This document shows positions 32,163 to 37,295 of a DNA stretch of 64,000 nucleotides, piece by piece. The notes under the pieces were generated by a model, which saw only the letters and a list, made by a program, of their open reading frames with translations, had not been told where the DNA came from and searched no databases. How positions within the stretch are numbered: the stretch's first letter is position 1; the number at the start of each line of letters is the position of its first letter. The DNA is from Lachnospiraceae bacterium (GTDB lineage Bacteria; Bacillota; Clostridia; Lachnospirales; Lachnospiraceae). The DNA lies in contig JAILHF010000051.1 in the NCBI GenBank assembly GCA_024696005.1, forward strand, positions 310,001 to 374,000, given 5' to 3'. The translations under genes and the position numbers were made by a program.

Positions 32163-34277
32163 TTAATTTTTCCTTCTGTAATACCAGATCCCGATCCCGA
32201 CCAAAAGGATCGCGCCGGGAATGACGCCGATCAGCAAAAACGAAAAGATATCCCTCGCCGTCGGGCCCACCAGGATCGGGTCGTAACGGTAGGGCTTTAC
32301 GGGCACATCCGTCAGTTCGTCGGTCTCGCTGACCTTCGAGAGCAGCTTCATGAAGAGCTCGTAATTGCTCCCGTTCGCCGCAAGGTTGATATCCGGGTAG
32401 AGAAAATAGTCCGCCGAAAAGACAGCCATCCTGACGGTCCCTCCCTCTCCGTGACGCTCGGTATACACGCCAAGCGAGAAAGGTCCCTTTTCGATGTCAC
32501 GTCCGGTCTTTACATAAGCCCCTTCCGTTGTGCGCAGGAAGGTCGTGCCCGTGACATCCGCGGTTTCCTTCAGGCGTATCCCCCTTGCGAAGGGCATGTA
32601 GATGAAACGCGTGCGTCCTTCGGTATAGATATTGCCCGTATAAGGCGTCTGCACGATCTCGGGCAGAAGGAACTCTTCCTTCTCGTTATAATAGGCCGGA
32701 TCCGTTTCCATGACAAGACCCGGCAGGACTTCCATTCCGAAATCGGAAAGCAGCGCGTCGTAATTCGGCGTATCCGTCCCTTCCGTATACCCCGTGATCA
32801 GAATAGCGCCCTTCCCCTGACCAAGGAAGGCACGGATCTTTTCCAGGTCCGCATCATTCAGGTCTTCCACGGGCGCAAGCAGAAACAGGATGTCCCCGTC
32901 CTCGGGAAGTGCCGGATGCTTCAGAAGGTTCAGGCTTTCCAGGTCATAGCCGGCGTTGGCGATCCTGCCTTTCAGCTCATCCTCCATCTCGTATTCCTGA
33001 TGCCCGCCGATGCAGAGGATCTTCATGACATCCCCGCTGGTCACGTGACGGATCGCGCTCATGATCCTGCCTTCCCCGTCATAGCCCGAAACGCGGTATT
33101 CCGTCGGCACATAGCTGCCAACACTCACATCGTAGGCGTAATCATAGCTCACCTGGTAGCAGTCGTAATAATTCACCACACGGCTGTTGTCCCCGCTGAC
33201 AACGATGAGGCTTCCCGCCGTCGGTTCCTCTTCGACATAATCAAGATAAAAATACGGCTGCTCCTTCGGATCGATATAGTCCACCTTGAGAAGTCCCGAA
33301 CACTCGCGCATGCGCTCGAGCGTGGTCGCAAGCGTTTCATCCGCATCCTCCCGCTTCGAGAGCACATGGATCTGCACACCGCGGTCAAGGGCATGCAGCG
33401 TCTGTTTGCTCTCTTCCGTGATCGAGCGTATGCCGTTGTAGGTAAGGTCCGCATTCCGGTATTCCGCCGGAACCAGACGGCAGAGTGCATTGAGGGCGAT
33501 CACCGCCGCAAAGGCCAGCACCACCTTTGCCACCCCCGAGAACACACCGATCGCGACTCCGCGGCTGCCTTTGCTGCGCCTGACGGTCAGCGACTGCACG
33601 GTAAGGAACAGCGCAAGCGCAATGATCGAAAGATAATAAACGTAATCCGACCAGACAAACGTGCCGTAAAGGCTGTCCTCAAAAGGTGCCGTCAGATCCA
33701 GGAAGCTCAGTGCCCTGGTCAGCAGGTTCCCTTCGCGGCTGATCATTGCATTGATCGCGCCCGTCATGGCACTCAGCAGCAAAACGAAAAACGTCAGCAC
33801 CGCCGCGATGATCTGGTTCTCCGTCAGAGCCGAGATCAGCACGCCGATGGCGAGCGCGGTCAGCCCAAAGAAGCAGAACGAAAAAAGGGCAAGCAGGTTC
33901 TCGGCCAGCGGCACCTCACCGTAGATCCGCATCAGGAGCGGATAGATCAAAAGCACGGTAAAAACCGGCAGGAACACACATACGGATGCCAGATACTTTC
34001 CGAGAACGATCTTCACCACGGGAACAGGCGACGTGAACAGAAGCTGGTCCGTGCGGTGTCTTTTCTCTTCCGAAAAACAGCGCATCGTGATCAGCGGCAT
34101 CGTGAACAAAAAGATGAACAGCGCCGCATCCAGGATATAGGAAAGGTACGGCAGGCCGCTCTGCAGGCCGTAATAGCGGAAATACCAGCCCAGGAAAAAG
34201 ATCGTCACCGCCAGAAAGATCCAGCCCGTCATCGTGCGGAAATTTGAAAGCCATTCTTTTTTAAAGATTGCCCACAT
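32163..34277 (-). CDS. ABC-2 type permease fused to a GldG-like domain
   Basis: 704 residues. Residues ~1-240 form an ABC-2 permease (FKKEWLSNFRTMTGWIF, KYLASVCVFLPVFTVLL, TENQIIAAVLTFFVLLL); ~250-670 form the extracytoplasmic GldG/ABC-aux type domain (SKQTLHALDRGVQIHVLSKR, ILITGYTEGTDTPNYDALL), and a last membrane helix ends the chain (FLLIGVIPGAILLVGIGIWYY). GldF and GldG are separate in Bacteroidetes; the fusion is common in Clostridia. Works with the ATPase encoded one base upstream. Substrate unknown. The ATG at 34275-34277 was preferred over an upstream TTG. Confidence 0.88.
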   Translation of the reverse strand: MWAIFKKEWLSNFRTMTGWIFLAVTIFFLGWYFRYYGLQSGLPYLSYILDAALFIFLFTMPLITMRCFSEEKRHRTDQLLFTSPVPVVKIVLGKYLASVCVFLPVFTVLLIYPLLMRIYGEVPLAENLLALFSFCFFGLTALAIGVLISALTENQIIAAVLTFFVLLLSAMTGAINAMISREGNLLTRALSFLDLTAPFEDSLYGTFVWSDYVYYLSIIALALFLTVQSLTVRRSKGSRGVAIGVFSGVAKVVLAFAAVIALNALCRLVPAEYRNADLTYNGIRSITEESKQTLHALDRGVQIHVLSKREDADETLATTLERMRECSGLLKVDYIDPKEQPYFYLDYVEEEPTAGSLIVVSGDNSRVVNYYDCYQVSYDYAYDVSVGSYVPTEYRVSGYDGEGRIMSAIRHVTSGDVMKILCIGGHQEYEMEDELKGRIANAGYDLESLNLLKHPALPEDGDILFLLAPVEDLNDADLEKIRAFLGQGKGAILITGYTEGTDTPNYDALLSDFGMEVLPGLVMETDPAYYNEKEEFLLPEIVQTPYTGNIYTEGRTRFIYMPFARGIRLKETADVTGTTFLRTTEGAYVKTGRDIEKGPFSLGVYTERHGEGGTVRMAVFSADYFLYPDINLAANGSNYELFMKLLSKVSETDELTDVPVKPYRYDPILVGPTARDIFSFLLIGVIPGAILLVGIGIWYYRRKN

Positions 34278-34278
34278 C

Positions 34279-35271
34279 CTACAATTCCTCAAACGTCAGC
34301 GGTTTGCTGATGATCCTTTCTCTTTCCTTTTCCCGCATCGGACGCAGGAAAGTCAGCTCCAGATAAACCTCTTCCAGCGTTACTTTGCGGTTCATCATCT
34401 CCAATATCGTATAACCTGCTCCGATGCAGGCCTTCGAGATCTTCTCCCGTATGTCTTCCCCGCGTTTCGCGTTCACTTCTATCGTGCAGGAATCCGCATC
34501 CTCGCTTACAACGCGGTGGCTCTCGATCCCTTCCAGCTTGTCCATGGCCTGCTCCGCCGCGGTGGCGCTGCCTTTGAGCACCAGCGTGAGGCGCTGCTGT
34601 TCGTTATAATCCAGCACCAGGTGCTCGGGCGTGTCATCCGCAACGAGCTTTCCTCCGGAGAGGATCAGCACATGGTCGCATACACTGGCCGCCTCTCCCA
34701 GAATGTGCGTGGAAAAGATCACGGTATGGTCTTCCTTGAGCCCCCGTATCAGCTCACGCATCTCCACGATCTGCTTGGGATCCAGGCCCGAGGAAGGCTC
34801 ATCCAGGATGATGAGACCGGGATCCGCGATCAGCGCCTGGGCCAGCCCCACACGCTGGCGGTAGCCCTTCGAGATCTGGCGGATCAGATGCTGCTTGACA
34901 TAGTTCAGGCTCGTCAGCTCACTGACACGCTCCACCTCTTTTTTTCGTTCCTTCCCGAAAAGACCGCGAAGCTCCGCGACAAAACCGAGGTATTCCGTAA
35001 CGGTCATGTCCGGATAGAGTGGCGGCACTTCGGGCAGGTATCCGATCTTCTTTTTCGCGCGCTGCGGTTCTTTGCAGAGCGAGATATCATCGATCAGGAT
35101 GTCGCCGCCGTCCGGAGCCAGATACCCGGTGATCATGTTCATCGTGGTACTCTTTCCCACGCCGTTCGGCCCGAGAAAAGCGTAAACCTTTCCCTTCTCC
35201 GCCGTAAAGGACAGATCCTCAATGATCTGCCGGCTCCCGTAACTTTTCCGAAGCTGCTCCACTCTAAGCAA
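34279..35271 (-). CDS. ABC transporter ATP-binding protein (GldA-like)
   Basis: 330 residues: Walker A GPNGVGKST, signature SKGYRQR, Walker B LIILDEPSSGLD, switch His in STHILGEA, then a C-terminal ~100-residue accessory domain. Energises the permease downstream. The start is TTG at 35269-35271, 10 bases after GGAGG; an ATG directly abutting that GGAGG opens only a five-codon frame ending inside the gene. Follows the glycosyltransferase-like gene by 18 bases. Confidence 0.92.
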   Translation of the reverse strand: MLRVEQLRKSYGSRQIIEDLSFTAEKGKVYAFLGPNGVGKSTTMNMITGYLAPDGGDILIDDISLCKEPQRAKKKIGYLPEVPPLYPDMTVTEYLGFVAELRGLFGKERKKEVERVSELTSLNYVKQHLIRQISKGYRQRVGLAQALIADPGLIILDEPSSGLDPKQIVEMRELIRGLKEDHTVIFSTHILGEAASVCDHVLILSGGKLVADDTPEHLVLDYNEQQRLTLVLKGSATAAEQAMDKLEGIESHRVVSEDADSCTIEVNAKRGEDIREKISKACIGAGYTILEMMNRKVTLEEVYLELTFLRPMREKERERIISKPLTFEEL

Positions 35272-35289: not shown

Positions 35290-36141
35290 TCATCGATCCG
35301 TGCCGGTCGCATAAAGCTCCAGCTCCGGCACCTTCACCGCTCTTTCATGCATTTCGGGAAACTCCCTCTTCATGCGGTCCATGCAGCGGCGCACAAATAT
35401 CCTTCGTTCGTCCATGTTGAACTTCAAAACATTCTTATGTCCCCAGAGATGCGTGAAACGATCCTGCTCACGCAGCTCCTCCATGCGGGCACAAAATGCA
35501 TGCAGGCTGAGACCTCTCTCCTGCGCGACCATCGGAAGGATGCGCTGCTCCGCAAAGACCATGGGACGAAGCCTGTCTTCCTTTTCGAGACAGTTTTCCA
35601 TGAAGCGGAGCGCCTCTTTCACATAGGCCTGCCGGAAATCGTTGTCGCGTATATAGAGGAGCGCCGTATTCGCGGGGCGTGTCCGGAAATCCCATCCCGC
35701 GGGATAATGATAATCCGCTTTCATCCGGAAAATGCCGGGATCCGGGTAAATCTCGGGATTCAATTCCTCCCTGTGGATCACGGCTAGCTTTGTCTCGCGC
35801 AGCTCTTTTGTGATCCCCCGCCAGACGATCAGATCCGTGTCGATCATCACGGACGGCTCTTCCTCACGCGCAAGCGCGCAAAGCTTTCCCGCCGCCCAGA
35901 ACACAACGGGGTCGATCCCCTCGGGTACCGAAAAGCGCTCCACTCCGCGTCCGAAGACTTCATCCAGCCCCCTGCGTACAAAAAAATCCTCCGCGGGGGC
36001 ATCCGCGTAGAGCTTTGCCTTGCCGTTATGCCGTTCCCAGGCAGCCACGCTCAGAAGCAGACAGGCAAGGTCGTAATCCTGCATCACAAAAGCCCTGCCG
36101 CCGGCAGCCGGTGCTGTCCACAAAGAATAAAACGCGTTCAT
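35290..36141 (-). CDS. Glycosyltransferase-like protein of unknown function (DUF6734-like)
   Basis: 283 residues. Begins MNAFYSLWTAPAAGGR. VMIDTDLIVW gives a DxD-type motif as in GT-A fold transferases, and AEQRILPMVAQERGL and THLWGHKN resemble the C-terminal half of such enzymes. I think it fits the DUF6734 group but cannot confirm this. No membrane segment. The ATG overlaps the GSY-repeat gene stop by one base (TGATG), so the two are translationally coupled and probably act together. Confidence 0.6.
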   Translation of the reverse strand: MNAFYSLWTAPAAGGRAFVMQDYDLACLLLSVAAWERHNGKAKLYADAPAEDFFVRRGLDEVFGRGVERFSVPEGIDPVVFWAAGKLCALAREEEPSVMIDTDLIVWRGITKELRETKLAVIHREELNPEIYPDPGIFRMKADYHYPAGWDFRTRPANTALLYIRDNDFRQAYVKEALRFMENCLEKEDRLRPMVFAEQRILPMVAQERGLSLHAFCARMEELREQDRFTHLWGHKNVLKFNMDERRIFVRRCMDRMKREFPEMHERAVKVPELELYATGTDR

Positions 36142-37211
36142 CAGATCAGATCCAAACCGTAGCCGAGTTCCCAGGTAAGACGGCGCAGACGGTATTCCTG
36201 CGGCAGCATCATCCCGCCTTCCGGCTCCGTCCCCTGCGGGGCGGCAGGCTCTGCGCCGGAAGGCTTTTCCCCCGCAAAGCCTCCGTACAGAAAGCTCCCC
36301 CGATGGTAGCTTCCTGCATAATAGCTCCCGTTCATGAACAGGCTGCGGTAGGAGCCAGCCCAATAGCCGCTCCCGAAAAACGCACTGCCCGCCAGCCGGG
36401 ACGAGGCAATAGCCTGCATGCGGTAAGACGAGGCAAATGAGCTTCCGAAAGCCGAAAAATAGCTTCCACCTCCGAAGAGACGCATGAGGTAACTGCCCGA
36501 AAGCCCCTGCCGGAAGCTCCCGGCGCCGAAGCGTGTTTCAAGAAAGCTGCCGAAACGGTAACTGCCGGAAAGATAGCTGCCCCACACACGGCTGCCCGAT
36601 GCACTGCCGAAAGAGATGAAGCTTCCGCCCGAAGCACGAAAGCTTCCGGCATGATAACTCCCTGCAGCAAAGCGGTAGCTTCCGCCTGCCCCTCCCATGC
36701 GATAGCTCCCTTTGAGAGGAGCAGCTGAAGAGACCGCCCCGCCCGCGGAAGGTGCCTGCGCATCCGTCCGCTGCATAAGCAAGCCGCGCTCCGGTTCCTC
36801 CCAGCCGTAAAAGACAAGGCCTTCCGGCCGTACAACCTCACAGCCGTTAAAATACAGATCATAAAGACGGTCACGGTCCGCAAGCACGAGCTGCTCCGCA
36901 TAAAGCTGCCCGAGCCGTGCATACAGACGGATAAAGACCGGAAACGCGTGGCCGAGTGCACACATCTCCTCTGCCACATCCCGCCCGCAATGCATCATGA
37001 ATCCGCCGTCCGGCAGCGCCGCACTGAGGTGCGCGTTGAACTCTCCGTTCCAGACCGCATATACGGAAAACGCTTCGTATTCTTCGCAGTAATTTGGCAA
37101 CGTCAAAAAGGCATATCCAGCATGGAATGCCTCCAATCCGTTTATGCGCCTGTCATAGGCTTCCACAGATTCTTTCTTTCCTCTGTCAAGCCAGCCGAAA
37201 CGCCTTGCCAT
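36141..37211 (-). CDS. GSY/GSF-repeat low-complexity protein
   Basis: 356 residues. Residues 1-150 are a mixed, apparently folded domain (GYAFLTLPNYCEEYEAFSVY, FNGCEVVRPEGLVFYGWEEP) that I do not recognise. Residues 168-310 are a low-complexity region with 15 GSY or GSF tripeptides, often 5 or 10 residues apart (GSYLSGSYRFGSF; GSYYAGSYHRGSF). A Pro/Glu/Gly linker and a conserved-looking tail (EYRLRRLTWELGYGLDLI) follow. No signal peptide or sortase motif. A regular 5-residue register with an aromatic could form a beta-solenoid, or the Ser residues could be glycosylated by the coupled downstream gene; both are inference. Confidence 0.8.
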   Translation of the reverse strand: MARRFGWLDRGKKESVEAYDRRINGLEAFHAGYAFLTLPNYCEEYEAFSVYAVWNGEFNAHLSAALPDGGFMMHCGRDVAEEMCALGHAFPVFIRLYARLGQLYAEQLVLADRDRLYDLYFNGCEVVRPEGLVFYGWEEPERGLLMQRTDAQAPSAGGAVSSAAPLKGSYRMGGAGGSYRFAAGSYHAGSFRASGGSFISFGSASGSRVWGSYLSGSYRFGSFLETRFGAGSFRQGLSGSYLMRLFGGGSYFSAFGSSFASSYRMQAIASSRLAGSAFFGSGYWAGSYRSLFMNGSYYAGSYHRGSFLYGGFAGEKPSGAEPAAPQGTEPEGGMMLPQEYRLRRLTWELGYGLDLI

Positions 37212-37266: not shown

Positions 37267-37295
37267 ATTGTATCACAAAAGGGAGCGTTTTCCAA
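37267..37295 (-). promoter_or_regulatory. Promoter of the GSY-repeat operon
   Basis: -35 TTGGAA (37290-37295), 17-bp spacer, -10 TACAAT (37267-37272). The -35 and spacer lie in the 3' half of the dut terminator hairpin. Confidence 0.75.

Follow-up and report, generated by a model that had tools for sequence, protein, structure and literature searches.

The GSY/GSF-repeat protein encoded in the window (the whole stretch of DNA that we analysed, 64,000 nucleotides), which ends in a conserved seven-residue tail, is paired with an enzyme candidate from the Pfam family DUF6734, and this pairing of tail protein and DUF6734 is well supported. Judging from sequence, we consider it somewhat probable that the two genes form a substrate-enzyme module in which the tail serves as a tag and sugar is placed on the serines of the repeat. 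The module comprises the following features:

36141..37211, minus strand: GSY/GSF-repeat protein, putative acceptor with tail tag (ORF of 356 aa, ATG at 37211)
36768..37211, minus strand: genus-restricted N-terminal domain, residues 1-148 (alignment A1)
36267..36761, minus strand: GS[YF] repeat region, residues 151-315 (15 GS[YF], shuffle test, codon diversity)
36144..36164, minus strand: C-terminal tail GYGLDLI, residues 350-356 (genus-wide and class-wide conservation)
35290..36141, minus strand: DUF6734 (PF20508) partner, putative glycosyltransferase (283 aa; Pfam E 2.1e-7)

The DUF6734 gene lies directly downstream of the repeat gene, its ATG overlapping the repeat-gene stop codon by one base (TGATG), and it follows immediately in 30 of 33 loci of the genus, with the other three (L024, L033 and L046) reaching the end of their contig. 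With 31.1 bits against a curated Pfam cut-off of 27, the window partner is a member of DUF6734, a family of unknown function, and this score marks the window type as a divergent branch that is defined by the tail-protein partner. Among 391 genomes of the class, DUF6734 is present in 20 (10 of 223 genera), and all 20 encode a protein ending in GYG[LI]x[LI]I; 19 of these proteins were found by DNA pattern and one by ORF, the latter being that of G698, which ends in GYGIHLI and was missed by the DNA scan. An independent DNA scan of the same 391 genomes for the tail matched 22, namely 19 of the 20 with DUF6734 (own genome included) and three of the 371 without it (Fisher p 3e-28, genomes of one genus not being independent). 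The three matches without DUF6734 fall in frames of 15, 20 and 16 residues that are unconvincing as genes, and the reversed tail pattern, used as a control, was matched in one genome of 391. Counted by genus, the tail is found in 10 of 10 with DUF6734 versus 3 of 213 without, the weak frames still being counted, and in the window's own genome the pattern has a single match, at this gene. Moreover, when neighbourhood ORFs of at least 90 aa were compared (E 1e-10, eight window genes included), DUF6734 was the only family common to all 11 genera, the next best reaching 3.

For 14 of the 19 class genomes other than the window's own, the tail gene lies just upstream of DUF6734. Seven of these adjoining tail proteins are S[YF]-rich (L079, L081, L087, L091, L093, L094 and L095), six from one genus are (GS)n proteins almost without aromatics (L080, L082, L083, L085, L088 and L090), and L078 encodes about 60 residues with few serines. 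Tail gene and DUF6734 are on different contigs in five class genomes of one genus, where the unlinked genes still encode GS/S[YF] repeats and the tail, L121 being cut by the contig end. At L077, L084, L086, L089 and L092, all from one genus, the DUF6734 gene stands apart from the tail gene, behind a gene that we take to be O-methyltransferase-like.

Four of the 398 genomes in a phylum sample carry DUF6734, two of them new (G1183 and G1119), and the family was not found in plasmids, phages or viral contigs. G1183 is the only one of 61 genomes of its order with DUF6734, and its upstream protein of 350 aa, which has little repeat, ends in SGSGFGGYGLELI plus three residues. The DUF6734 match at this locus (L128) is in two pieces, C1:788455-789147 and C1:787256-787354, about 1.1 kb apart, and the pair is probably a decaying or transferred copy. 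G1119 (L127) carries a canonical DUF6734 (E 4.3e-60) that differs from the window partner in its setting, and no tail protein was seen up to about 6 kb away. Genes resembling, by eye, phage-tail or contractile-injection parts adjoin it, and DUF6734 may have a second role at this locus. Overall, a clear serine repeat is present in 19 of the 21 tail proteins from the 21 genomes with the pair. The absence of a tail protein near the L127 enzyme counts against the module reading, as do the exceptions L078 and L128, which are almost repeat-free.

Further features surround the module:

34279..35271, minus strand: ABC transporter ATPase, a common but dispensable neighbour (PF00005 E 4.2e-30)
32163..34292, minus strand: ABC-2 permease with an ABC_transp_aux domain, common but dispensable (PF12698 E 3.4e-16, PF09822 E 6.7e-12)
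37267..37295, minus strand: promoter-like site TTGGAA-17-TACAAT of vegetative type (consensus scan; not evidence of function)

The ATPase/permease pair is missing beside the module in six loci of the genus (L022, L047, L048, L051, L052 and L053) and therefore falls outside the core. Upstream of the repeat gene are matches to dUTPase, an activase of the 4Fe-4S/radical-SAM type and anaerobic ribonucleotide reductase. The promoter-like site is located 56 bases ahead of the ATG, the scan giving 2 overlapping matches against a shuffle mean of 0.1.

The tail, which the initial annotation had described only as conserved-looking, proves to be the most informative part of the protein. Each of the 30 complete C-termini from the genus carries GYG[LI][DNG]LI, three of them with one extra residue, W; L024, L033, L035 and L046 were left out of this count as incomplete or broken by N. 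The 19 matches to the tail correspond to 18 distinct DNA strings and 6 peptides, and synonymous codons differ at every position, so the tail is conserved at the protein level. It is therefore extremely improbable, and largely refuted, that the tail is kept merely as DNA, serving as a ribosome-binding site or coupling signal for DUF6734. Many loci do have a start and stop that are overlapping or near each other, which favours such a signal, but gaps of 175-178 nt occur at L035 and L042, and the tail is retained in the five genomes that have DUF6734 elsewhere.

The repeat region was confirmed to hold exactly 15 GSY/GSF tripeptides, spanning residues 168-307 of the 356-aa protein (starts at 168, 177, 184, 189, 196, 211, 216, 221, 231, 239, 249, 286, 295, 300 and 305), and the looser motif [GAST]S[YF] has 17 copies. 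The observed 15 in residues 151-315 is far above the values from 10,000 shuffles (mean 1.36, sd 1.10, maximum 7). At the DNA level, Tandem Repeats Finder gives a single weak array (36540-36581, 2.8 copies, 70% matches). The 20 [GATS]S[YFG] units past residue 140 comprise 17 distinct 9-mers and draw on both serine codon families (15 AGY, 5 TCN), and this diversity and mixing imply that the motif is kept at the protein level.

Of 34 other genomes of the genus, 31 contain an orthologue of the repeat protein, and the three that lack one are only 72, 72 and 81% complete; none was found in 63 genomes of other genera. In the orthologues the commonest S[YF] spacing is variously 5, 6, 7, 10, 13 or 14, and values of 2 or 4 are included among the commonest S[YF] or GS spacings of the other tail proteins. 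Among 13 close pairs of relatives, which overlap and are not independent, and with gapped positions left out, the motif serine agrees in 238 of 261 aligned cases, as does the residue preceding it in 229 of 262, and the aromatic class is retained in 245 of 259; for spacer residues, identity is 980 of 1535, and for serines that are not part of the motif it is 80 of 126. We read selection as acting on the GS[YF] sites and not on a fold. Runs of the (YE)n type (YEYEYEYE), or similar ones, occur inside the serine repeat of L032, L079, L091, L094, L095, L118 and L120, proteins that come from several genera, one being an orthologue of the window protein.

These data bear on the two suggestions of the initial annotation, a beta-solenoid with an aromatic ladder and a modified polypeptide. 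Support for a pentapeptide-like right-handed beta-solenoid with stacked Tyr/Phe, to which DUF6734 would be merely a co-transcribed neighbour, is provided by the window protein, where 8 of the 14 spacings are multiples of five, and by the match of L030 to Pentapeptide_2. In the orthologues L030 and L031 the repeat has turned into a near-perfect GSFNx pentapeptide array. The 5-residue register noted in the window repeat is real in part, but it is not kept in orthologues that use 6, 7 or 14. Similarly, the window repeat does differ from standard pentapeptide repeats, in that neither the Pentapeptide_2 profile nor a constant five-residue register is found and Pfam (up to E 1) and NCBIfam searches return no match, whereas the strict 5-residue GSFNx repeat of its relative L030 matches Pentapeptide_2 with E 1.9e-34. 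Because spacing varies across the family (2, 4, 5, 6, 7, 14) and one genus has aromatic-free (GS)n proteins, a conserved solenoid fits poorly, and the co-occurrence of tail and DUF6734 even where the genes are unlinked argues against a mere neighbour. As a general answer we consider the solenoid quite unlikely, although some family members, such as L030, may form one. Structure prediction, which the initial annotation had proposed, proved uninformative either way, the AlphaFold2 model of the window protein (mean pLDDT 27.9, built from two sequences) being neutral on the fold. The repeat might instead be a low-complexity "sticker" chain, in which Tyr/Phe (with Arg) in a Gly/Ser background leads to condensation or fibres, as in eukaryotic low-complexity domains, with DUF6734 tuning the process or acting as a scaffold partner. 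Such a role would suit the composition of residues 151-315 (S 35, G 34, A 22, F 17, Y 14, R 12), the conservation of the aromatic class and the predominance of GSYR units in L025, L026 and L028; we regard it as unlikely, however, given that tail and enzyme are kept in the six (GS)n proteins without aromatics.

Two other readings take the gene pair itself as their starting point. A RiPP-type natural product, with the tail as C-terminal recognition sequence and the repeat as a core that is cleaved and exported, is compatible with the single dedicated enzyme and with the length of L118 and L078 (about 60 residues, counted from the likely ATG). The window protein, however, is no small precursor, having 356 aa and a large N-terminal domain conserved in the genus, and the genera share neither a transporter nor a protease nor a second maturation gene, so that we give this reading a low probability. 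A spore coat or exosporium protein with its modifying enzyme is very unlikely: 19 of the 21 pair-bearing genomes, the set in which this was counted, have a SpoIVA match, but the window's own genome, which is 99.94% complete, has none, nor has G1183, and the promoter-like site before the gene is of vegetative type.

The N-terminal domain, which the initial annotation could not recognise, remains without a named family. Alignment A1 (31 sequences) has 10 invariant columns, the best Pfam E among its members is just 0.052, and solved-structure searches with alignments A1, A2, A5 and A8 gave no credible match. A profile search, as had been suggested for this part of the protein, located the domain in 2 of 392 genomes of the order, both from its own genus. 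A second N-terminal family (A8, consensus IVFxQxELDxAL..LCDGxFxLP; members L079, L081, L091, L094, L117, L119 and L120) bears repeat and tail in other genera, and a comparison of the own-genus domains with the A8 group showed no relation (p 0.12). Pfam searches of ten tail proteins gave, beyond Pentapeptide_2 (L030) and NigD_N (L032), weak chance-level matches alone. The NigD_N match (E 7.8e-8) was rejected as low complexity, since no single stretch of it passes alone.

DUF6734 is most likely, on the basis of its motifs, a GT-A-like, DxD-dependent sugar transferase. All 36 sequences of alignment A5 match DUF6734 at E up to 1, and D101, D103, E198, Q199, H231 and G234 are invariant in the 36, with K236 nearly so; the DxD expected of a GT-A glycosyltransferase is thus present as D101 and D103. 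The motif order DxD ... D/E-Q ... HxxGxxK is reminiscent of GT8 enzymes, and in alignment A7, used for the GT8 comparison, D102, D104, D187, Q188 and H235 are invariant. A local profile comparison placed DxD on DxD with p 0.092 for GT8 and 0.099 for GT32, a weak test in which the scores of reversed profiles were 19.6 and 23.2 and those of the real ones 19.5 and 18.9, and the positive control, GT8 versus GT32, reached p 0.0033 only, hence the low power. Pfam Nucleotid_trans was matched by 3 of 30 DUF6734 proteins (best E 0.077). PHROGs and NCBIfam searches with A5 returned scattered single-member matches (NleB-type 0.072, galactokinase 0.0083), which we dismissed as chance.

In the substrate-enzyme module that we favour, the tail GYG[LI]x[LI]I would be the tag recognised by the DUF6734 enzyme, as their co-occurrence suggests, and the repeat would be a flexible chain whose numerous serines serve as acceptors, each within the GS or S-[YF] context that is seen to be conserved. 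The putative GT-A-like transferase would then decorate these serines with sugar. The idea of a modified polypeptide thereby acquires an enzyme candidate, together with motif serines that are kept while spacers change, and it is the modification itself that we infer. Serine is the presumed acceptor because it is what the (GS)n and GS[YF] proteins have in common, the aromatic residue not being shared; tyrosine may nevertheless be modified, since aromatics match serine in conservation inside the genus. The N-terminal domain, varying by genus, could determine where the decorated protein is located or with what it associates. In what is the weakest step, the decorated protein probably remains intracellular, where it would be a scaffold, coat or polymer primer, because inspection of the repeat protein by eye shows no signal peptide and the genera have neither a transporter nor a protease in common. 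A more speculative extension, which we put forward tentatively and regard as rather doubtful, is a proteoglycan-like intracellular system, in which unrelated N-terminal domains share an address tag and DUF6734 densely glycosylates a fast-changing Ser/aromatic chain to give a soluble glycan-coated scaffold or condensate.

Taken together, a DUF and an orphan repeat protein that each lacked an interpretation become a testable combination of substrate and enzyme, with a portable tag of seven residues. Should the tag recruit the enzyme, the module would offer a simple route to directing multi-site serine modification, and gut Clostridia may harbour a class of cytoplasmic proteins decorated in this way. 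More generally, a structural-looking repeat can be a field of sites in which density, not register, is under selection.

Literature searches for DUF6734 and for GYGLDLI found no paper, subscription articles being mostly outside their coverage. One likeness is to the serine-rich repeat glycoproteins (GspB, Fap1), which also have repeated serines in a low-complexity chain and a dedicated enzyme adjoining. These proteins are described as glycosylated intracellularly before export (PMC5578698) and as surface adhesins exported via SecA2/SecY2 (PMC6973325, PMC5578698). The window protein, in contrast, has no signal peptide visible by eye, its enzyme is a DUF6734 protein, and accessory Sec genes, a trait of the serine-rich repeat glycoproteins, were not seen among the annotated genes beside the pair. 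Glycocins and other RiPPs likewise combine a dedicated enzyme with a recognition sequence lying outside the modified part, but the window system has a C-terminal tag, large N-terminal domains and no common transporter or protease. In serglycin-type proteoglycan cores, Ser-Gly repeats serve as the acceptor tract, and a similar (SG)n tract is seen in the six one-genus tail proteins; the window system is bacterial and uses a different enzyme. Pentapeptide_2 resembles the family through L030 and in that part of the window repeat follows a 5-residue register, which is not kept among orthologues. Serine-rich repeat glycoproteins and RiPPs thus already exemplify the general idea that a repeat substrate bearing a tag has its own dedicated enzyme, and the DUF6734/tail-protein pair looks like an undescribed protein-modification system.
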